NCBI RefSeq assembly: GCF_032118995.1 | Contig: NC_092657.1 | Location: forward strand, 69,391 to 133,390 | Direction of reading: 5' to 3' | Origin: Asterias amurensis | Taxonomy: Eukaryota; Echinodermata; Asteroidea; Forcipulatida; Asteriidae | DNA length: 64,000 nt | Position numbers and translations under genes: made by a program | Notes under the pieces: model-generated | What the model was told of the DNA's origin: nothing | The model's database searches: none | What the model saw: only the letters and a program-made list of their open reading frames with translations | Shown here: one piece after another, positions 1-64,000 of the stretch | Numbering within the stretch: position 1 is the stretch's first letter | Layout: the number at the start of each line of letters is the position of its first letter

Positions 1-844
1 CCCAACCCCCCAACCCCCCAACCCCCCAACCCCCCAACCCCCCAACCCCCTAACCCCCTAACCCCCCAACCCCCTAACCCCCTAACCCCCTAACCCCCTA
101 ACCCCCTAACCCCCTAACCCCCTAACCCCCTAACCCCCTAACCCCCTAACCCCCTAACCCCCTAACCCCCTAACCCCCTAACCCCCTAACCCCCTAACCC
201 CCTAACCCCCTAACCCCCTAACCCCCTAACCCCCTAACCCCCTAACCCCCTAACCCCCTAACCCCCTAACCCCCTAACCCCCTAACCCCCTAACCCCCTA
301 ACCCCCTAACCCCCTAACCCCCTAACCCCCTAACCCCCTAACCCCCTAACCCCCTAACCCCCTAACCCCCTAACCCCCTAACCCCCTAACCCCCTAACCC
401 CCTAACCCCCTAACCCCCTAACCCCCTAACCCCCTAACCCCCTAACCCCCTAACCCCCTAACCCCCTAACCCCCTAACCCCCTAACCCCCTAACCCCCTA
501 ACCCCCTAACCCCCTAACCCCCTAACCCCCTAACCCCCTAACCCCCTAACCCCCTAACCCCCTAACCCCCTAACCCCCTAACCCCCTAACCCCCTAACCC
601 CCTAACCCCCTAACCCCCTAACCCCCTAACCCCCTAACCCCCTAACCCCCTAACCCCCTAACCCCCTAACCCCCTAACCCCCTAACCCCCTAACCCCCTA
701 ACCCCCTAACCCCCTAACCCCCTAACCCCCTAACCCCCTAACCCCCTAACCCCCTAACCCCCTAACCCCCTAACCCCCTAACCCCCTAACCCCCTAACCC
801 CCTAACCCCCTAACCCCCTAACCCCCTAACCCCCTAACCCCCTA
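1..844. repeat. Telomere-like terminal array, 8-bp unit CCCCCTAA
   Basis: About 105 head-to-tail copies of CCCCCTAA (TTAGGGGG on the other strand) run unbroken from base 1. The C-rich strand is 5'->3' inward, as expected for the left end of a chromosome. Five units at 6-45 and one at 62-69 read CCCCCCAA, so the variants sit at the distal end. The usual animal unit is the 6-mer TTAGGG; here the G run is two bases longer in every unit. It could be a true telomere or a terminal satellite derived from one. Confidence 0.85.
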
Positions 845-918
845 CGGGAATCGAACCGGGGTCTCCTAGGTCAGACGCGAGCGTCTTATGCACAAGCCAA
901 CTGTGCTACCTCTCTTAG
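845..918 (-). repeat. tRNA-like sequence abutting the telomere array
   Basis: On the minus strand this has an A-box-like TAGCACAGTTGG and a B-box-like GGTTCGATTCC at tRNA spacing, so it looks like a tRNA-derived SINE head or tRNA pseudogene. The 3' end of the tRNA-like body runs directly into the telomere array. A related minus-strand copy lies at 49,750-49,818. I could not fold a clean cloverleaf with a 7-base anticodon loop, so I do not call a functional tRNA. Confidence 0.6.
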
Positions 919-1189
919 TATATCTCAACAGAATTCATAACCATAACAAGCCTGTGAAAATGTTAGCTCGATTGGTAGTCCAAGTTGCTAGATTTCTATG
1001 AAAGAACATTACACTCTTGTCACACCAAGTGCTGGGCTTTAAATGCTAAATGTAAAGACCTTAATTTAAAAGGTTTCACAATCAAATTCGTGGATAATTA
1101 CTTTACTGGCAAAAAATACATCACTTCATACGGACTTGTTTGTCACAATGTTTTCAACTATCAATCTCTCACCATTACTAGTAAGAAAG
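919..1189 (+). mobile_element. MITE family A, truncated copy
   Basis: Matches the inner part of the family seen complete at 13,364-13,757, from TATCTCAACA through CCTGTGAAAAT to CACCATTACTAGTAAG. The left end is cut by the tRNA-like element and the right end by the SINE that follows. The 74-residue open frame here is a by-product of the repeat. Confidence 0.7.
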
Positions 1190-1345
1190 TGTCGTGGCCG
1201 AGCGGTTAAGAGCACCGAATTCAAACTCTGGTGTTTCTGATCAGCAGGGTTCGAATCCCCAGACACTTGACCATTGCTTCGTCCAGCGGTGGGGCAGAGG
1301 GGGGTGGAACTGTGTGCCCATGACACCGGGTTGATGAACTAATTT
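1190..1345 (+). mobile_element. tRNA-derived SINE (Leu/Ser-like head)
   Basis: The head has an A-box-like TGGCCGAGCGGTTAAG and a B-box-like GGGTTCGAATCC, a type II tRNA pattern, followed by a degenerate body. The same head recurs at 32,905-33,044 (+), 18,765-18,845 (-) and 43,318-43,380 (-). It interrupts MITE family A, so it inserted later. Confidence 0.7.
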
Positions 1346-3955: not shown

Positions 3956-4789
3956 TAAGGGTAAATACACTTACACATGTAACAGTCTTACTCCACTGTA
4001 AACTATTGCTTACTAGGATGTCTAAAGGGACCTGGTTACATTGGGATAACACTCTTACACATGTAAGGGCATTACAGAGTAGTGCTTACTACAATAAATA
4101 GAAACTTTTGTATATATAATTGCAACGACATTTCACATTACATTAATGTAGTTATGTAAAAGCATAACCAAGAATTACAGGCCAAAGTTTGACAGCAACA
4201 AGAAAACATTTTCACATATTATGACAACAACACTTCTCAGAGTGCATTTTAAGTCTATTAGCCTGTTAAACAGGAACTTATTTTCAGGCAGGTAAACTTA
4301 ACTATATTCACACATTGAATGCACCCCAAAAAGTTCAGGTGGTTTTTCAAGACCTGACTGAATGCCAGCTTTCAGCTTTTATCAAGATAACTCTCAATAA
4401 CAAAGATAACTACAAATGGGGTCTAAGGACATTTCAGCAGGTCAAATGGACACACCCACTAATAATAAGTTTTATCAGGTTAAAGATTCAAATGGGGTCT
4501 GCGGCCATAGACCGGTGGTTTACAAAATGTATGACAGTACCCATGCCTCGATACATGGCACTTTACAAAGTCTTTTCATCGTGCTTTTTTAAGGTTCACT
4601 CTCCAGCTGATAATAAAAGCTCTACGTTGAGGTACCTGAACATTTAATGACTGTCAAATATGTTACTTGACATTCAGTGTAGTAGTTTCAGTTACTAGGT
4701 ACATAAATTAACTATTTTTTGGTTAAACACACTGCACACTATTGTCAACGACCAAATCTTCTCACATGCTGTATCTGAAAATATACAAA

Positions 4790-5098
4790 ACAAAACAAAC
4801 CTGTGAAAACTTTAGCCCAATTGGTCGTGGAGGGTTCCGAGAATAATTGACGAAAAAACACCCTTGTCACATAAAGTTGTGGGCTTTTAGATGGTGCATT
4901 TAGAGACCTTATTCATTCGAAATCTGAGATCTCAAAATCCAATTTTTGGAAAATTAATTCTGTCTAGAAACTACTCTACTGCAGAGGGAGCCGTTTCTCA
5001 CAATGTTTTGTACCATCAAGTTCTCCCCATTACTCATCATCAATTTAATGCCAATAATTATTTTTAGTAGTTTACCAAGGTGTCCACTGCCTTTCACT
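4790..5098 (+). mobile_element. MITE family A, 5' truncated
   Basis: Contains the family landmarks CCTGTGAAAACTTTAG, CAGAGGGAGCCGTTTCTCAC and the 3' terminus GGTGTCCACTGCCTTTC. The first third is missing. Confidence 0.75.
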
Positions 5099-16079: not shown

Positions 16080-17212
16080 ATTTCTATAGGCTCTTTGTCT
16101 GGAATATGAATTCCCTAAATGAATCAGAGAGGCAATGAAGAAGTCCATAGTGTTCACCTTCAAACTTGGGGGTGTGTATAGCAAAAGGTGGAGGGGAGGG
16201 TTACGGTAAGGCTCTTTGTCTGGAAAATGGATTCCCTAAATGAATCAGAGAGGCAATGAAGCAGCACAAAGTGATCACTGCATACATGGTGGTATGGATA
16301 GCAAAGGGTGTGTGTGTGTGGGGGGGGGGGGGGGTTAGGGTTAGGCTCTTTGTCTGGAATATGGATTCCCTAAATGAATCACAGAGGCAATGAAGCAGCA
16401 CACAGTGATCTTCTGCATACATGGTGGTATGGATAGCAAAGGGTGTGTGTGTGGGGGGGGGGGGTTAGGGTTAGCCTCTTCCTCTGGAATATGGATTCCC
16501 TAAATGAATCAGAGAGGCAATGAAGCAGCACACAATGATCACCTTCATACTTGGTGGTGTGGATAGCCAAGGGTGGAGGGGGGGGGGGGGGTTAGGGGGT
16601 TAGGGTTAAGCTCTTTGTGTGGAATATGGATCCCATAAATGAATCAGAGGCACTGCAGCACACAGTGATCTCCTTCATACTTGATGGTGTGGATAGCAAA
16701 GGGCGTGTGTGTGGGGGGGGGGGGGGGTAAGGGTTAGGCTCTTTGTCTGGTATGGAAGTTCTCTAAATGAATCAGAGAGGCCATGGAGCAGCAGACAGTG
16801 ATCACCTTCATACTTGGTGGTATGGATAGCAAAGGGTGTGGGGGGGGGGGGGTTAAGGTTAGGCGCTTTGTCTGGAACATGGAAGTTCCTAATGGAAGTT
16901 CCTAAATGAATCAGAGAAGCAATGAAGAAGTCAACAGTGATCAACTTCATACTTGTGGTGTGAATAGCAAAGGGTGGAGGGGGTGGGGGAGGGGTAGGGT
17001 AAGGCTCTTTGTCTGGAATATGGATTCCCTAAATGAATCAGAGAGGCAATGAAGAAGTCTACAGTGATCAACTTCATACTTGTGGTGTGAATAGCAAAGG
17101 GTGGAGGGGGTGGGGGAGGGGTAGGGTAAGGCTCTTTGTCTGGGTGGATTCCATAAATGAGTCAACGAGGCAATAAAGAAGTCCACAGTTTGTCCAATAT
17201 TGGTAAACCAGG
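16080..17212. repeat. About 130-bp tandem repeat, nine units, with G-run/TTAGGG junctions
   Basis: GGCTCTTTGTCTGG-type landmarks recur at about 16,090, 16,211, 16,346, 16,477, 16,611, 16,738, 16,862, 17,005 and 17,132. Each unit contains GGATTCCCTAAATGAATCAG and GGATAGCAAAGGGTG, then a run of 8-14 G. Several units end in TTAGGGTTAGG (for example 16,335-16,345), and 16,592-16,605 reads TTAGGGGGTTAGGG. Four minus-strand frames of 60-90 codons are shadows of the repeat. Confidence 0.9.
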
Positions 17213-22184: not shown

Positions 22185-22546
22185 AAAGACAGTGGACATT
22201 ATTGGTAACTGTTAAAGACTAGTTTTCAACATATGCATAAAATAACTAACCTGTGAACATTTGAGCTTGATCGGTGTCAAAGTAGAGAGATAATAATGAA
22301 AGAAAAACCCTCGTCACACAAAGTTGTGTGCTTTAAGATGCTTGATTTCGAGACCTCAAGTTCTAAATCTGAGGTCTTGAAATCAAATTCGTGGAAAATT
22401 ACTTCTTTCTCAAAAACTATGGCACTTCAGAGGGCCATTTCTCACAATGTTTTATACCATCAACTTCTCCCAATTACTCATTACCAAGTAAGATTTTATG
22501 CTAATTATTGTTCTGAGTAATTACCAGGAGTGTCCACTGCCTCTAA
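22185..22546. mobile_element. MITE family A, near-complete copy
   Basis: Begins AAAGACAGTGGACATTATTGG and ends ACCAGGAGTGTCCACTGCCT, with the palindromic centre GACCTCAAGTT/AAATCTGAGGTC. A 74-codon frame within it is a by-product. Confidence 0.85.
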
Positions 22547-32500: not shown

Positions 32501-32904
32501 AAATGTAAACAAGCACAGTATGTTGGACACTGCTGGACCATAGAGCTAGGACCCTAGATCCATGGCTGGATACAGTACTGCTGACCTTAAACAAGGTGAA
32601 GGCTTACCAATAAACCACTTATCACTCAGGTTGACTTCCCCTCATTAAACAGTAATCTATCTGGCTGTGTTCATGATAGCCTTAAAGTGAAAACAATTTA
32701 AAACTGAGGTTATTGCTAGTTAGCAGAGAACTCTATGAAAACAAGGTCAAAAGGAATTGAAAAGGCAATTTCAAGGAGAATGATGAACTAGACAAAGATT
32801 TCATAGTGAGAGCATCTCAACCGCAGAGTTTCTGTAGTGTTTTTACTTAATACATGGAGGCATGCATTAGCCCACAAAGATAACCTGGAATTGTGGAAGA
32901 GTAG
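29546..32904. other. Mostly non-coding; two decayed minus-strand exon-like segments
   Basis: The segments at 30,053-29,960 (acceptor ctgttttccag, donor gtaagt) and about 30,919-30,712 share the phrase IGAVVSGG and a related following sequence, so they look like duplicated exons. The first has an in-frame stop; the second ends in a stop just before its donor. A 62-codon frame at 30,731-30,919 contains QYGVQWKLHQSFQGHEDF. An A-rich tract lies at about 30,158-30,175. Beyond 31 kb I see no gene. Confidence 0.35.
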
Positions 32905-33044
32905 TGGCCGAGCAGCACTGTCAAGAGCACCGAATTCAAACTCTGGTGTTTCTGATCAGCAGAGTGAGGGTTCAAATCCCCAGCCGTGCCACTTGTGTCC
33001 TTAGGCAAGACACTTAACCATTGCTTTGTCCTTCGGATAGGACG
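32905..33044 (+). mobile_element. tRNA-derived SINE, 3' truncated
   Basis: The Leu/Ser-like head, GTGGCCGAGCAGCACTG to GGGTTCAAATCCCCAGCCG, is followed by CACTTAACCATTGCTTTGTC and GGATAGGACGC. The body stops exactly where a MITE family A copy begins. Confidence 0.7.
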
Positions 33045-44217: not shown

Positions 44218-45122
44218 GATGACATTGTCAATGTTAATGGCCTTATCCAATCGTCATCCAGTTGTATGATACCATTAATCCTCTGATGATACAAGTTGCA
44301 ATCATCTTAAAGACACTGGACACTATTAGTACATTGTCAGAGACCAGTCTCACTTGGTGTATCTCAACATTCTTAAATACACTGGACACTATTAGTACAT
44401 TGTCAAAGACCAGTCTTCTCACTTGGTGTATCTCAACATTCTTAAATACACTGGACACTATTAGTACATTGTCAGAGACCAGTCTTCTCACTTGGTGTAT
44501 CTCAACATTCTTAAAGACACTGGACACTATTGTTACATTGTCAGAGACCAGTCTCACTTGATGTATCTCAACATTCTTAAAGACACTGGGCACTATTAGT
44601 ACATTGTCAGAGACCAGTCTCACTTGGTGTATCTCAACATTCTTAAATACACTGGACACTATTAGTACATTGTCAGAGACCAGTCTTCTCACTTGATGTA
44701 TCTCAACATTCTTAAAGACACTGGACACTATTAGTACATTGTCAGAGACCAGTCTCTCACTTGATGTATCTCAACATTCTTAAATACACTGGACACTATT
44801 AGTACATTGTCAGAGACCAGTCTTCTCACTTGATGTATCTCAACATTCTTAAAGACACTGGACACTATTAGTACATTGTCAGAGACCAGTCTCTCACTTG
44901 ATGTATCTCAACATACTTGTGATGACATTGACAATGTTAATGGCCTTATCCAATTGTCATCCAGTTGTATGATACCATTAATCCTCTGATCTACAATAAT
45001 ACAAGTTGCAATCATCTTAAAGACACTGGACACTATTAGTACATTGTCAGAGACCAGTCTCTCACTTGATGTATCTCAACATTCTTAAAGACACTGGGCA
45101 CTATTAGTACATTGTCACAAAC
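44218..45122. repeat. 66-69-bp tandem array made from a MITE terminus, with duplicated flank
   Basis: Nine units from 44,307 to 44,912 begin CTTAAAGACACTGGACAC and end GTATCTCAACATT. This is the outermost segment of MITE family A. The preceding unique flank (44,218-44,306, from TGATGACATTGTCAATG) is repeated at 44,922-45,018 and followed by two more units. A 161-codon minus-strand frame and a 99-codon plus-strand frame are shadows of the unit. Confidence 0.9.
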
Positions 45123-46610: not shown

Positions 46611-49281
46611 TTACACCTTGTTATAAATCTTCACTGATTTGTTGTCTGCCACTGCAAGCTGCTGACCATCTGATGTCAATGAGATTCCACCAGGGCTGAA
46701 CAGACCCTGAGCAATACAGCTGAGAAATCTACCCTGAGTGTCATACTGATGAATATGACCAGTGCCTGCCCCATTCCACATTGCAATGTAGATAGATGAG
46801 CTATCACAGCATACACCTTTGCAGTTTCCAACTGGTTGACTATTGATCTTTGGATTGATGCTGAATAGTGTAATACCAGTGAGTTCAACAATGTCTACTT
46901 GATGTCTGTCCCCACTGACTACAACTCTGTCCTTGCTGTCAATGGCCAAGTAGTGAGGTTTTGTCTGAACTAAAACAGTGTCAATGAGTGAACCATCACT
47001 GGATCTGTGTTTAGTTATAACTGACCTCTTCACATCCCCGACCATGATTGTATCCTTTATGACTGCTACACACTCAAGGTCTACTGATGTCTTGCCAACT
47101 TCACTATGAGGCACTGTGTGGAATTCAAACATCTTGTTGCCATTCCTATTGTACATCTTGACAGAGTCGGTCCTATCTACAATCACTAACTGATTCTGGA
47201 ATGCAGCAACAGCCAGAGGGTCTGGAAAACAGATAAACAAACGGATAGAACCCAATACAATGAATGAATATTCATTTGAAAAAAAAACTTACAATAATTT
47301 GATTTTTGTAAAAAAAAAAAAAAGATCATTATTTATTTGAATGTTTCCTGTGCTGTAAAAGCTCTTTGTATGTTGCTTCCAATTCACAATCATACATGTA
47401 ACAATGACATGTAACAATGACATACAGTAGAACAATAAACAACAATTTGTTCATATTAGCAAGGTTACTATTAATCAAGATATTCAAATAGTATTGAATT
47501 CTTTCTTTTTAATTCTTCTTTTCTGTTTTCACCAAAATAATTAATTTGTTTATTAATTTATTTATTTATAATATTAATTTGGTATTAAACTGCTTTTGTT
47601 GGTTTAAATTAGAGGAATGTCAATTATTGAGAATAACAGCAGCAGAGTGGATTTAGTGATCATGCAGCAAATGGATGTAGTCCTAGTCTACAAGGTACAG
47701 TGAAATAGCAAGAACCATTCAATTTCATGACATACAGTTTGACTACCACAGAAACCTTGTATTGATCACAACCAATGCTGTGATGTTTGAACATTCTAAT
47801 GATTGACTTGAGTTGAGAAAAGCAAACAATGTTTGATAAATATTTCTCAGATTTGATTGTGGTATTGGATTGGAATAAATCCTTATTTTCATAGAATACT
47901 TTCTAACTGTCACCTTGAAACCAAACAAGAGTACTTTTTCCACAGTTATATCTAAGATTTACAACAATATACCCCTGACTAAATGATTTGTATGGAACTT
48001 ACAGCTTGATAATGGGATAGATTTCTTCTGTTGTCCCTTAGTGTCGTAGATTACCACTCTTTTATTCAAGTGGTCTGCCACTGCCATCTCATCCCCAGGT
48101 ACAGATGCTTCAATATCAGAGGCCCCATTGATTCCTTCATCATACTCCAAACTAAGCTCCCACTTTGGCTCCTTCATACATGTACTCAGATTACCCAGGG
48201 AGATATCACAAACCCCTGGAGTGAATCTCAGATGGTCGAGGGTCGAATCTATCTTGGGTTGATTTTGATCTATGAGTCCCTTCAAGTCCTTACTGATTGT
48301 TGGATAGCTTGCAAAGAAGTCAGGCACTGATGAATTCTTGAAGATGTCTTTGGCGCTCTGAAGTGATTGCTGTATTTGCTGCAAGTTTACACTAACTGCT
48401 TGCTCAAATTCCTCCAATTTCTTGTTTCGATCTTTAAGGATTGTTTGTAATTCATCCATGATGCGACTCTCTTGAGCTGTTACCTTAGCCCTGATCCCAT
48501 CAGCTCTGTTCTTCACGTGTGCCATGGTTCTCTTAACTGCAATGTTTAGGTTGTCTTTCATTGTTGAGGCAGTTGCTTGAGATTGTTCAAGCTTCTTCAT
48601 GGTTTCTTCAAGGGGAGTAAAGAGTTGAGCCAATGTCTGTTTGTATGTGGATGAGGCTTGGTTGCAGTCAATATACTCATGTTGTGGATTACGGTGATCG
48701 ATGACAGTACAATCTCTACAAATCATCACATCACATGTTGTACAGTAGAACCTCATCACTTCACCTTCATGAGGTTGGCATTCTGGATGGCGTTTTGGTT
48801 TTGTCTTTTTCATTGCAGTTTTCCCATCTCTAACATCTTTCAAAGTAGCTACTGTATGGCTTAACAATGAGGGAATTTTCTTGTGCATTTTGTAGCAGTT
48901 TGCACAAATAAACATGGGGCAGTCGTAACAGAAATGTGTTGCCTTGTTTTTTTCCTCACATAAATTACAGACCAACTTGCTGTGTTCAAGTGAACTGACC
49001 TGCTCCAGTTGACCTGCAAGACCAGTTAAAATGAAGTTACTCTTAAAATCTTCAACACCCGTCTCAGGAAGTTGTGTCTCCTTTCGACACAAAGGACAAA
49101 TAAGCATCTTTGCATCTTTGTAGTTGGTAGTGTGATATTCAAGTAAACAGTGTTTACAGAAGCTGTGAAGACAGTCTAGTAGTTTGGGTTCCGTGTACTC
49201 CTCTTGACAAATACTGCACTCCAGATAATCCTTTCTGATTTGTTCTAGAGCTGAACCTTGTGCTGGTTTAGAAAATGCCAT
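46611..49281 (-). CDS. TRIM protein: RING, two B-boxes, coiled coil, NHL-like propeller (copy A)
   Basis: Two exons, 49,281-48,003 and 47,221-46,611, are split by a 781-bp phase-1 intron (donor gtaagt, acceptor tttatctgttttccag), giving 629 residues. The start ATG has a good context (AAAATGG). The RING C3HC4 ligands are C22, C25, C37, H39, C42, C45, C62 and C65. B-box 1 uses C105, C108, C118, C121, C126, C129, H133 and H142. B-box 2 uses C168, H171, C180, C183, C188, C191, H196 and H201. A coiled coil follows (about 205-330). From about 385 to the end, NHL/six-bladed-propeller-like repeats such as LAIDSKDRVVVSG and ISLTSDGQQLAVAD appear. By family it should be a RING E3 ubiquitin ligase whose propeller binds a protein or RNA partner; the substrate is unknown. 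Architecture resembles TRIM45/TRIM56/TRIM71-type proteins, many of which act in innate immunity or development, and I cannot assign orthology. ATTAAA at 46,536-46,531 may be the poly(A) signal. All zinc ligands and both frames are intact. Confidence 0.9.
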
Positions 49282-49391
49282 TTTGATCTGAATAAAAAAA
49301 AAATAACAAACTCGTTAATCAAATATTATAAACCACAAGGGAAACTGACCGGATAAATTTTAATTGATTTGGGTTTGAACAAACATTATCA

Positions 49392-49749: not shown

Positions 49750-49818
49750 GCCAGGAATGGAACCGGAGTCATCTTGGTGAGAGGTGAGCGCTATACGCAC
49801 AAGCCAACCATGCCATCC
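49750..49818 (-). repeat. tRNA-like sequence, minus strand
   Basis: The minus strand has TGGCATGGTTGGCTTGTGCG and GGTTCCATTCC, related to the telomere-abutting element at 845-918 (shared GAGCG, CACAAGCCAAC and GAACCGG in plus-strand wording). Confidence 0.5.
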
Positions 49819-56680: not shown

Positions 56681-59418
56681 TTTCTCAGCTCCCTTTGGGA
56701 GTATCCAGTCTGAGCTGCTGTGATGCTCAGAAGGCTTTTTCTCAGCTCCCTTTGGGAGTATACAGTCTGAGCTGCTGTGGAGCTCAGAAGGCTTTTTCTC
56801 AGCTCCCTTTGGGAGTATACAGTCTGAGCTGCTGTGGTGCTCAGAAGGCTTTTTCTCAGCTCCCTTTGGGAGTATACAGTCTGAGCTGCTGTGATGCTCA
56901 GAAGGCTTTTTCTCAGCTCCCTTTGGGAGTATACAGTCTGAGCTGCTGTGGAGCTCAGAAGGCTTTTTCTCAGCTCCCTTTGGGAGTATACAGTCTGAGC
57001 TGCTGTGGAGCTCAGAAGGCTTTTTCTCAGCTCCCTTTGGGAGTATACAGTCTGAGCTGCTGTGATGCTCAGAAGGCTTTTTCTCAGCTCCCTTTGGGAG
57101 TATACAGTCTGAGCTGCTGTGGAGCTCAGAAGGCTTTTTCTCAGCTCCCTTTGGGAGTATACAGTCTGAGCTGCTGTGATGCTCAGAAGGCTTTTTCTCA
57201 GCTCCCTTTGGGAGTATACAGTCTGAGCTGCTGTGGTGCTCAGAAGGCTTTTTCTCAGCTCCCTTTGGGAGTATACAGTCTGAGCTGCTGTGGTGCTCAG
57301 AAGGCTTTTTCTCAGCTCCCTTTGGGAGTATACAGTCTGAGCTGCTGTGGAGCTCAGAAGGCTTTTTCTCAGCTCCCTTTGGGAGTATACAGTCTGAGCT
57401 GCTGTGGTGCTCAGAAGGCTTTTTCTCAGCTCCCTTTGGGAGTATACAGTCTGAGCTACTGTGGTGCTCAGAAGGCTTTTTCTCAGCTCCCTTTGGGAGT
57501 ATACAGTCTGAGCTGCTGTGGAGCTCAGAAGGCTTTTTCTCAGCTCCCTTTGGGAGTATACAGTCTGAGCTGCTGTGGTGCTCAGAAGGCTTTTTCTCAG
57601 CTCCCTTTGGGAGTATACAGTCTGAGCTGCTGTGATGCTCAGAAGGCTTTTTCTCAGCTCCCTTTGGGAGTATACAGTCTGAGCTGCTGTGGAGCTCAGA
57701 AGGCTTTTTCTCAGCTCCCTTTGGGAGTATACAGTCTGAGCTGCTGTGGAGCTCAGAAGGCTTTTTCTCAGCTCCCTTTGGGAGTATACAGTCTGAGCTG
57801 CTGTGATGCTCAGAAGGCTTTTTCTCAGCTCCCTTTGGGAGTATACAGTCTGAGCTGCTGTGGAGCTCAGAAGGCTTTTTCTCAGCTCCCTTTGGGAGTA
57901 TACAGTCTGAGCTGCTGTGATGCTCAGAAGGCTTTTTCTCAGCTCCCTTTGGGAGTATACAGTCTGAGCTGCTGTGGTGCTCAGAAGGCTTTTTCTCAGC
58001 TCCCTTTGGGAGTATACAGTCTGAGCTGCTGTGGTGCTCAGAAGGCTTTTTCTCAGCTCCCTTTGGGAGTATACAGTCTGAGCTGCTGTGGAGCTCAGAA
58101 GGCTTTTTCTCAGCTCCCTTTGGGAGTATACAGTCTGAGCTGCTGTGGTGCTCAGAAGGCTTTTTCTCAGCTCCCTTTGGGAGTATACAGTCTGAGCTGC
58201 TGTGGTGCTCAGAAGGCTTTTTCTCAGCTCCCTTTGGGAGTATACAGTCTGAGCTGCTGTGGTGCTCAGAAGGCTTTTTCTCAGCTCCCTTTGGGAGTAT
58301 ACAGTCTGAGCTGCTGTGGAGCTCAGAAGGCTTTTTCTCAGCTCCCTTTGGGAGTATACAGTCTGAGCTGCTGTGGTGCTCAGAAGGCTTTTTCTCAGCT
58401 CCCTTTGGGAGTATACAGTCTGAGCTGCTGTGATGCTCAGAAGGCTTTTTCTCAGCTCCCTTTGGGAATATACAGTCTGAGCTGCTGTGGAGCTCAGAAG
58501 GCTTTTTCTCAGCTCCCTTTGGGAGTATACAGCCTGAGCTGCTGTGATGCTAAGAAGGCTTTTTCTCAGCTCCCTTTGGGAGTATACAGTCTGAGCTGCT
58601 GTGATGCTCAGAAGGCTTTTTCTCAGCTCCCTTTGGGAGTATACAGTCTGAGCTGCTGTGGTGCTCAGAAGGCTTTTTCTCAGCTCCCTTTGGGAGTATA
58701 CAGTCTGAGCTGCTGTGGTGCTCAGAAGGCTTTTTCTCAGCTCCCTTTGGGAGTATACAGTCTGAGCTGCTGTGGAGCTCAGAAGGCTTTTTCTCAGCTC
58801 CCTTTGGGAGTATACAGTCTGAGCTGCTGTGGTGCTCAGAAGGCTTTTTCTCAGCTCCCTTTGGGAGTATACAGTCTGAGCTACTGTGGTGCTCAGAAGG
58901 CTTTTTCTCAGCTCCCTTTGGGAGTATACAGTCTGAGCTGCTGTGGTGCTCAGAAGGCTTTTTCTCAGCTCCCTTTGGGAGTATACAGTCTGAGCTGCTG
59001 TGGAGCTCAGAAGGCTTTTTCTCAGCTCCCTTTGGGAGTATACAGTCTGAGCTGCTGTGGTGCTCAGAAGGCTTTTTCTCAGCTCCCTTTGGGAGTATAC
59101 AGTCTGAGCTGCTGTGATGCTCAGAAGGCTTTTTCTCAGCTCCCTTTGGGAATATACAGTCTGAGCTGCTGTGGAGCTCAGAAGGCTTTTTCTCAGCTCC
59201 CTTTGGGAGTATACAGCCTGAGCTGCTGTGATGCTAAGAAGGCTTTTTCTCAGCTCCCTTTGGGAGTATACAGCCTGAGCTGCTGTGATGCTCAGAAGGC
59301 TTTTTCTCAGCTCCCTTTGGGAGTATACAGTCTGAGCTGCTGTGGTGCTCAGAAGGCTTTTTCTCAGCTCCCTTGGAAAGTTTACAGTCTGAGCTGCTGT
59401 GGTGCTCAGAAGGCTTTT
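56681..59418. repeat. 57-bp minisatellite, 48 copies, higher-order structure
   Basis: Forty-eight head-to-tail units of 57 bp, nearly identical, with a mainly three-state site (TGTGATGCT, TGTGGTGCT, TGTGGAGCT) and a few rare variants. Each unit contains two potential hairpins: CTCCC-TTT-GGGAG, and CTGAGC with a 9-nt loop closed by GCTCAG; the three-state site lies in that loop. Since 57 is 3 x 19 and one plus frame lacks stops, a 920-codon frame spans the array with a 19-residue repeat. A minus frame is open in 46 of 48 units. Neither has a promoter, splice support or recognised domain, so I treat it as non-coding. The array lies in what corresponds to the intron and NHL exon of TRIM copy C. 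Confidence 0.95.
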
Positions 59419-59440
59419 TTAAAGCCTCACAGGTACTCAT

Positions 59441-60221
59441 TTATACCCCTGAAATAGCAACAACCATTCAATTTCATGACATACAGTTTGACTACCATAA
59501 AAACCTTGTATTGATCACAACCAATGCTGTGACGTTTGAACATTTGTTATGATTTGACTTGAGTTGAGAAAAGCAAACAATGTTTGATAGATACAGTGTA
59601 TATCAAATAAAAGCAAGCTAGAAAATCAAACAGAGCCGAACTACACAGCCCAGAGACACTTTATTATGACCAAGATACTAAGGTGAACATGATCCTGTCT
59701 GACCCATCCCATCCCTTGTACCCTAAAGTTTTATTAAGTCGTCGGCGGGAGGATCTCCTTGGACACAATGCCACAACAACTCCTTTGTCCCTACTGCAAT
59801 TCATGTTTACAATGGTTCTTAAGTTAGCTGCACTTTGTTTTATGCGTTGTCGGTTTAAAGGACCTCGCTTGTGTACATTTTACCTTGTATATAAATATTG
59901 ATGTGAATCATTTTTAATCCATGCCGGAAACATATTTTTATACCTGATATTCTTAATTTTATCTCTCTGTTTATTGTTATAAAATGTTTAGTGTTTTTGT
60001 ACTGTTTGAAGCAAGGCCAGTTTTAATTTCCCCAGTGTGGGATAATAAAGTATCTATCTATACCTCAGATTTGATTGTGGTAATGGAGTGGATTAAATCC
60101 TTATTTTCATTGAATACTTTTTGACTCTCACCCTGATAACCAATCAAGAGTAACTTTTACAAAGTTTTATCTGAGATTTGCAACAATAAATCTCTGACTA
60201 AACAATTACTAGGAAACTTAC
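59441..60221 (-). other. Intron-like sequence of TRIM copy C
   Basis: On the minus strand, 60,221-60,062 and about 59,592-59,441 match parts of the TRIM copy A intron (for example CAACCATTCAATTTCATGAC near 59,460 and near 47,713). Homology ends at the minisatellite edge. Confidence 0.75.
59593..60062 (+). mobile_element. 5'-truncated LINE 3' end
   Basis: Absent from the copy A intron. The plus strand begins with a decayed frame containing ILSDPSHPLYPKVLLSRRR, reminiscent of the C-terminal tail of LINE reverse transcriptases. It continues through an AT-rich 3' UTR and ends CCCCAGTGTGGGATAATAAA, then GTATCTATCTATA, a LINE-like short tandem tail. The 72-codon frame at 59,683-59,901 is part of it. 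Confidence 0.6.
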
Positions 60222-60532
60222 TTTGAGGTATGTCAATAGTTTCCTTCTGGTGTCCCTTACTGGCATAGATCACCACTCTATTCCCAGCATCAGCCAATGC
60301 CATCTCATTCCCAGGTACAAAGACATCAATATCCAAAGCATTGATTCCTTCATCAAACTCCCAACAAAGCTCCCACTTTGGCTCATCCGTAGGCTCCTTC
60401 ATAATCAGATTACCCAGGGACATATCACAAACCCCTGGAGTGAATCTCAGATGGTCTAGGGTCGAGTCTATCTTGGGTTGATGTTGATCTTTGGGTAATT
60501 TCAAGTCCTTACTGATTGTTGAATAGCTTGCA
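60222..60532 (-). pseudogene. TRIM copy C: 3' end of exon 1 only
   Basis: The reading frame matches residues about 335-426 of copy A (shared QPKIDSTLDHLRFTPGVCD and the KWEL block) and keeps the same phase-1 donor (gtaagt at 60,221). Differences include a TDEP insertion and single-residue losses. Upstream, homology stops at about 60,532, so RING, B-boxes and coiled coil are missing. Downstream the NHL exon is absent, replaced by minisatellite sequence. No stop interrupts the fragment itself. It is probably a dead duplicate; a short open frame of 115 codons covers it and its intron start. Confidence 0.8.
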
Positions 60533-60640
60533 AGGATGTAATTTAAATACAGGTGACAGTTTCTACTTCAATTCAATCTGAAGACAGAAAACACACATTT
60601 AAAATAAATTGTTTTGCCTTGTATTTATCATTAGTACAGA

Positions 60641-62839: not shown

Positions 62840-63453
62840 TTACACCTTGTTATAAATCTTCACTGAATTGCAATCTGCCACTGCAAGCTGCTGACCATCT
62901 GATGTCAATGAGATTCCACGTGGGTAGTACAGACCCTGAGTAATACAGCTGAGAAATCTACCCTGAGTGTCATACTGATGAATATGACCAGTGTCTACCC
63001 CATTGCCCACTGCAATGTAGATAGCTGAGCTGTCACAGCATACACCATTGCAGTTTCCAACTGGTTGACTATTGATCTTTGGATTGATGCTGAATAGTGT
63101 AGTACCATTGAGTTCAACAATGTCTACTTGTTGTCTATCCCAACCACTGACTACAACTCTGTCCTTGCTGTCAATGGCCAAGTAGTAAGGTTTAGTCTGA
63201 ACTGAAACAGTGTCAATGAGTGAACCATCACTGGATCTGTGTTTAGTTATAACTGACCTCTCCGCATCCCCGACCATGATTGTATCCTTTATGACTGCTA
63301 CACTCAGAAGGTTTACTGATGTCTTGCCCACTTCACTATGAGGCACTGTGTGGAATTCAAACATCTTGGTGCCATTCCTATTGTACATCTTGACAGAATT
63401 GGTCTGATCTACAATCACTAACTGATTCTGGAATGCAGCAATAGCCCGAGGGC
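62840..63453 (-). CDS. TRIM copy B: NHL-like propeller exon (partial gene)
   Basis: This is the terminal exon of a second TRIM gene; the acceptor tttatctgttttccag precedes base 63,453 and the stop is TAA at 62,842-62,840. The frame is intact over 204 codons and enters in the same phase as copy A. Against copy A I count by eye about 27 substitutions and one extra codon (GWDRQQ for GDRHQ), roughly 87 percent identity. Conserved propeller phrases include LAIDSKDRVVVSG, QPVGNC and ISLTSDGQQLAVAD. Several changes cluster at SSAIYIAVGNGVDTGH (SSSIYIAMWNGAGTGH in A). ATTAAA at 62,765-62,760 is a possible poly(A) signal at the same distance from the stop as in A. The RING, B-box and coiled-coil exon must be to the right of the window, so intactness of the whole gene cannot be judged. 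The role is presumed as for copy A. Confidence 0.85.
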
Positions 63454-64000
63454 CTGGAAAACAGATAAACAAACGGATATTCACAATCATACATGTAACA
63501 ATGACATGTAACAATGACATACAGTAGAACAATTAACAACAATTTGTTCATATTAGCAAGGTTACTATTAATCAAGAACAAAATAGTATTGAATTCATTC
63601 TTTTTAACTCTTCTTTTCTGTTTTCACCAAAATAATTAATTAATTTATTAATTTATTTATTTAATGTTAATTTGGGATTAAACTGCTTTTGTTGGTGTTA
63701 ATTAGAGGAATGTCAATTATTGAGAATGACTGCAGCAGAGTGGATTTAGTGATCATGCAGCAAATGGATGTAGTCCTAGTCTACAAGATACAGTGAAATA
63801 GCAAGAACCATTCAATTTTATGACATACAGTTTGACTACCATGGAAACCTTGTATTGATCACAACCAATGCTGTGATGTTTGAACATTTTAATGATTGAC
63901 ATGAGTTGAGAAAAGCAAACAATGTTTGATAAATAGTTCTCAGATTTGATTGTGGCGTTGCAAAGTAGATTAAATCCTTATTTTCATTGAATACTCTTTG

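Follow-up and report, generated by a model that had tools for sequence, protein, structure and literature searches.

A likely eight-base telomere at the left edge of an animal-looking sequence

Introduction

TTAGGG is described as the characteristic telomere motif of Metazoa, Echinodermata included (PMC6410037); the further textbook units for animals are TTAGG in arthropods and TTAGGC in nematodes (PMC10767889). Departures from these units have been described in Hymenoptera, where chalcid wasps carry TTATTGGG, TTACTTGGG and TTATTGGGG, for which the authors inferred a changed telomerase RNA template (PMC8977481), and vespid wasps carry the 11-base unit AACCCAGACCC, according to a survey in which complex repeats are counted in 45 species, few of them named (PMC11814493); unusual telomere repeats are also reported from root-knot nematodes (PMC10844300). 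The eight-base unit TTAGGGGG is known from telomeres of basidiomycetes, namely Cryptococcus (as a seed sequence), Naematelia, Tremella and, as a candidate, Agaricus (PMC10100673, PMC13085929, PMC3990503, PMC13066641).

The 64 kb of DNA analysed here (the window) opens with a tandem array of this same unit, followed by sequence that looks metazoan. The locus raises the question of whether an animal chromosome can end in eight-base repeats, which would imply a changed telomerase RNA template, or whether the array is a terminal satellite, both possibilities having been put forward in the initial annotation.

Results

Structure and direction of the array

The period-8 array fills the left edge of the window:

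1..843, minus strand: telomere-type array (TTAGGGGG)n of about 105 units (TRF, unit-by-unit reading, shuffles and unit count)

TRF reported it as a single row at 4-844 with period 8, 105.1 copies, 99% matches and 0% indels, and unit-by-unit reading resolved window 1-843 into 3 bases followed by 105 x AACCCCC[T/C], base 844 being still in phase with the eight-base period. At 106 assessable positions, the third base of the unit was A (TTAGGGGG) in 99 and G (TTGGGGGG) in 7; other sequence differences were found in 0/106 units and length differences in 0/106, and the run of five G was present in all 99 normal TTAGGGGG units. The six-base unit of canonical (TTAGGG)n fits none of the 106. The 16-mer TTAGGGGGTTAGGGGG had 96 exact matches, every one inside the array, whereas 100 dinucleotide shuffles gave 0.00 on average. 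The exact period-8 runs of at least 24 bases were those of 777 and 50 bases within the array and a 28-base stretch of A. The array is therefore confirmed as an observation, and the annotated eight-base unit in place of TTAGGG, with five G in each of about 100 inner copies, was borne out.

The annotated left-telomere orientation held as well, with the C-rich strand reading 5′ to 3′ from the left edge and the G strand pointing outward. As in telomeres made by telomerase, a short unit of T, A and G is repeated in tandem with its G strand running 5′ to 3′ endward, and the units are not diverged, divergence being one mark of a minisatellite beside an internal position in the chromosome. The array begins at window base 1, and TTAGGGTTAGGG was not found in the rest of the window (847-64000). 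Its direction, homogeneity and start at base 1 suggest that it is terminal in its contig.

Variant units at the distal end

Departures from the normal unit lie at the distal end:

1..45, minus strand: distal block of six TTGGGGGG units, the outermost incomplete (unit count)
62..69, minus strand: isolated TTGGGGGG unit with its third base at window 67 (unit count)

The variant C of the strand as read stands at window 3, 11, 19, 27, 35, 43 and 67, so that all seven TTGGGGGG variants are among the nine most distal units of 106 (p = 1.5e-9 if randomly placed). The annotation of the distal units as TTGGGGGG is thus right for the block at 1-45 and incomplete beyond it, the further TTGGGGGG unit at 67 being set apart by two normal units. 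Template slippage, which had been suggested as a source of this variant, found no support and was rejected: because the unit length stays at 8 bases in all units, TTGGGGGG is an A-to-G substitution and not a product of slippage.

Natural telomeres usually carry their variants proximally. Here, the variants sit at the newest, distal end, and this placement hints at trouble with the consensus at the tip. The outermost array, where TTGGGGGG lies, is likely to be covered by few reads, and an error of consensus or base calling at the tip is the most likely source of the variant, more so than incorporation of dG opposite template U. The latter would make TTGGGGGG real biology, in which the newest repeats differ because telomerase places dG opposite template U by wobble, or because a second telomerase RNA allele is at work; such an origin would be compatible with an eight-base telomere, and we consider it unlikely. 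It accords with the constant length of 8 and with the clustering of variants at the growing end, and ciliate telomerases that misincorporate offer a precedent. However, it is drawn from one assembled tip, behind which there are probably one or few reads, and six consecutive variants suit systematic error better than random misincorporation.

Junction with the flanking DNA

Transition from array to flank is abrupt at 844/845, with no degenerate repeats, the minus strand reading GGTTCGATTCCCG up to the junction and TAGGGGGTTAGGGGG beyond it. Three features follow the array inward:

845..917, minus strand: truncated tRNA-like SINE head adjoining the array (A and B box pair, diverged copy)
915..1182, plus strand: interspersed repeat (four copies of 70-72% identity, plus weaker ones)
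1187..1269, plus strand: tRNA-Leu-like SINE head (ARAGORN), with partial copies at 32897-32983 and 18842-18783

In the junction head, an A-box-like motif (908-897) and a B-box-like motif (857-847), 40 bases apart, both face the telomere, and the B box stops two to three bases short of the array. In a scan of both strands for such boxes, three of the A boxes were paired with a B box, in four rows, the junction head among them. Rfam gave no match for 845-917, either at gathering score across the window or in a scan of 800-1400, and the head is called tRNA-like from its boxes and its copy. The second head was matched as tRNA at 1188-1268 with 18 bits, a weak hit under the gathering score of 29 and the sole one in the 800-1400 scan; no Rfam family was found at gathering score in the window.

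A diverged copy of the junction head lies at 49754-49808 (78% over 55 bases) and runs past the B box into sequence other than the array, diverging after 49808. Because this copy continues differently past the B box, the telomere starts inside the SINE head. The simplest history of the junction would be that the DNA distal to the SINE head was lost and the break capped at that point, so that the telomere was seeded inside the SINE, although with one junction to judge from it is also possible that the SINE inserted beside an existing telomere.

The boxes of the junction head face outward into the array, and TTTT is absent from its G strand. Without such a stop, the boxes could be a start of RNA polymerase III telomeric transcripts, and outward transcription of the telomere from them is put forward as a conjecture.

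Repeats in the rest of the window

Copies of the 915-1182 repeat were found at 22226-22478 (+), 13694-13424 (-), 33385-33110 (-) and 4788-5034 (+). TRF listed 30 rows in the window; periods other than that of the array were 1, 5 or 13 to 393 bases, and a second period-8 row was not found.

The only TTAGGGGG outside the array is at 16587-16605, where GGGGGTTAGGGGGTTAGGG keeps in phase with the telomere unit over 19 bases, probably by chance. This stretch, GGGGG-TTAGGGGG-TTAGGG, was considered as a telomere fossil and rejected, as it sits within a G-rich minisatellite (16087-17189) that has units of roughly 130 bases, long G runs and TTAGGG-like parts.

Two further tandem arrays were observed. 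At 44305-44918, a 69-base unit is repeated in nine copies that share a 21-base stretch with 910-930 (86%, E 0.17), the start of the telomere-adjacent interspersed repeat, and the array is perhaps a tandem-amplified piece of the 915-1182 repeat family. At 56681-59419 lies a 57-base minisatellite of 48 copies at 97%. Because 57 is a multiple of 3, each of its strands stays open for more than 900 codons (929 aa on plus, 915 aa on minus), and false proteins may be predicted there by a gene caller.

Nature of the host DNA

Coding evidence in the window comes from TRIM and NHL reading frames:

47959..49314, minus strand: TRIM-type ORF with RING and two B-box domains (Pfam; phmmer)
46611..47288, minus strand: NHL-like ORF, just under the Pfam cut-offs (NHL 19.8 bits against 20; Str_synth 24.9 against 25)
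62840..63532, minus strand: NHL ORF (Pfam NHL 24.7 bits, cut-off 20; Str_synth 28.3, cut-off 25)

In the first, zf-B_box scored 42.2 bits against a cut-off of 24.1, and the best PDB matches in phmmer were chains named TRIM3 and TRIM2. The NHL-like ORF at 46611-47288 is perhaps a further, predicted exon of this TRIM gene, and the similar ORF at 62840-63532 is part of a second such gene. Pfam was run on 17 of the 37 ORFs of at least 90 aa outside masked repeats, one of them as a piece: three (the TRIM/NHL ORFs) were at the cut-off or at most 0.2 bits under it, four had matches far under the cut-off (the best, RP854, 18.2 bits against 25), and ten had none. Genes or pieces of the TRIM/NHL type thus occur in more than one copy in the window (46611-49314, 60160-60567 and 62840-63532, minus strand), where the stretch at 60160-60567 looks, by eye, like the central part of the TRIM ORF and had no Pfam match.

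Long ORFs are sparse. Twelve reach at least 150 aa in the 64 kb, nine of them inside or partly within tandem repeats, the other three being the TRIM/NHL ORFs. GC content per 2 kb is 33-46%, except for the first 2 kb (48.9%, array included). The TRIM ORF gave no match to phage sequences, the SINE and repeat pieces gave none to viral contigs, and six pieces of the sequence, looked for as text in papers, occurred in none. The repeats may be reminiscent of echinoderm DNA, and of sea stars in particular. Animals and fungi differ in the distribution of TRIM proteins and in gene density, which served as our guide here. By TRIM/NHL ORFs, tRNA-like SINEs, GC and the sparsity of long ORFs, the host DNA looks metazoan, and TRIM-type and NHL ORFs together with few long ORFs outside tandem repeats are not what a fungal host such as a gene-dense basidiomycete would present.

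Alternative explanations of the array

Between the two possibilities offered by the annotation, a real left telomere with a changed template is the better supported, by its place at the edge, the outward G strand, five G in 99/99 normal units and the lack of TTAGGGTTAGGG at 847-64000; a satellite is possible and fits less well. Such a terminal or subterminal minisatellite would resemble a telomere and mark the point at the contig edge where the assembly broke off, perhaps at this end alone, and we consider it quite unlikely. The motif alone is weak evidence of a telomere, as short arrays of the 8-mer occur within unrelated loci: exact fourfold TTAGGGGG was found in one stretch of viral contigs and three of prokaryotic genome contigs, within arrays of 4.5, 7.9, 5.4 and 15.0 copies inside loci. 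The window is also rich in tandem repeats, with its 30 TRF rows and the TTAGGG-like G-rich array at 16087-17189. On the other side, the 843 bases are near-perfectly homogeneous, their G strand points outward at the window edge, and the TRF output holds no further period-8 row. A run of 105 clean, outward units at the edge is set apart from the short non-telomeric arrays, though it is one end. The longest of these short arrays, with about 15 copies of a telomere-like 8-mer (91% matches), is on a Desulfobulbus contig, at locus positions 728-847.

Alternatively, the true unit may be TTAGGG or have another G-run length, with TTAGGGGG made by a nanopore basecaller or polisher and TTGGGGGG as a second miscall, an artefact that appears distinctly improbable. 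Nanopore miscalls at telomeres are common and strand-specific, (TTAGGG)n being read as TTAAAA and (CCCTAA)n as CTTCTT or CCCTGG, and miscalls that change length, with longer G runs, are also reported, from (TTGGGG)n to (TTGGGGG)n and from (TCAGGG)n to (TCAGGGG)n (PMC9414165). The tip block of TTGGGGGG resembles this type of error, and if the reads were nanopore reads, these miscalls would be the best argument against the 8-mer itself. However, TTAGGGGG is not among the TTAGGG miscalls given in the relevant part of that report (TTAAAA, CTTCTT, CCCTGG), and length differs in 0/106 units.

Finally, a chimaera of a basidiomycete telomere joined to animal DNA, or a fungal origin of the whole window, could draw on TTAGGGGG being normal in Agaricus (candidate), Cryptococcus (seed sequence), Naematelia and Tremella, but is very improbable in view of the animal-looking DNA downstream, with SINE heads from the junction on, TRIM/NHL ORFs and few long ORFs outside tandem repeats.

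Discussion

Our analysis suggests that this array probably forms the left end of an animal chromosome, as a telomere made by telomerase from a changed RNA template. The ordinary animal telomerase RNA template is CUAACCCUAAC. A template like CUAACCCCCUAAC, the usual animal one with two extra C, would let each round of telomerase add one TTAGGGGG. Telomerases that stutter produce units with varying G number. Because the run of five G is fixed in all 99 normal units, the array points to copying of a template rather than to stuttering or slippage. The human template has 11 nt for a 6-nt unit (PMC7658794), and by analogy a CCCCC-containing template would serve an 8-nt unit; sea star telomerase RNAs have been identified in nine species (PMC8480181). 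From the array and its junction we infer the telomerase origin, the template and the healing of a break, and from this one end the use of TTAGGGGG at chromosome ends across the species, a single end being the weak side of the proposal. Far less likely are two additions to it, namely that TTGGGGGG arises from dG opposite template U and that RNA polymerase III telomeric transcripts start from the SINE boxes.

Compared with canonical (TTAGGG)n, the array has the same T2-A-Gn unit, the outward G strand and the homogeneous tandem arrangement at the edge, whereas the unit has five G in 8 bases instead of three G in 6. If the host is an echinoderm, published echinoderm telomeres count against an TTAGGGGG telomere here: those of sea urchins are TTAGGG (PMC3308324; PMC11066563), and the TTAGGG ends of Diadema setosum show longer G runs here and there, including one of five G (PMC11066563, Table 5). 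Among the literature matches listed, this odd unit in a TTAGGG end is the only case of the 8-mer in an animal telomere in print, and an animal telomere made of TTAGGGGG was not found, a weakly supported negative. Hymenoptera likewise have animal units longer than 6 bases, with a changed template inferred for chalcids, but their sequences are different and change outside the G run, whereas the G run alone grows here. The unit is identical to that of basidiomycete (TTAGGGGG)n, while the host differs, being animal-looking in its TRIM/NHL ORFs, SINEs, low GC and sparse coding; the sharing of TTAGGGGG with basidiomycetes is presumably convergent. We somewhat favour a non-insect animal, probably a deuterostome, whose template would have gained two C and whose telomere unit, grown from six bases to eight, would have come to match that of basidiomycetes by convergence; its end-binding proteins would have had to follow.

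The unit at this end seems to be an animal telomere unit two G longer than TTAGGG, and an eight-base animal telomere is likely, though unproven for other ends. If true, the two additional G would call for a corresponding change of the telomerase RNA template together with tolerance by telomere-binding proteins, TTAGGG probes and TTAGGG-only software would miss or misjudge such ends, and the species would offer a natural experiment in the co-evolution of template, TERT and end-binding proteins.
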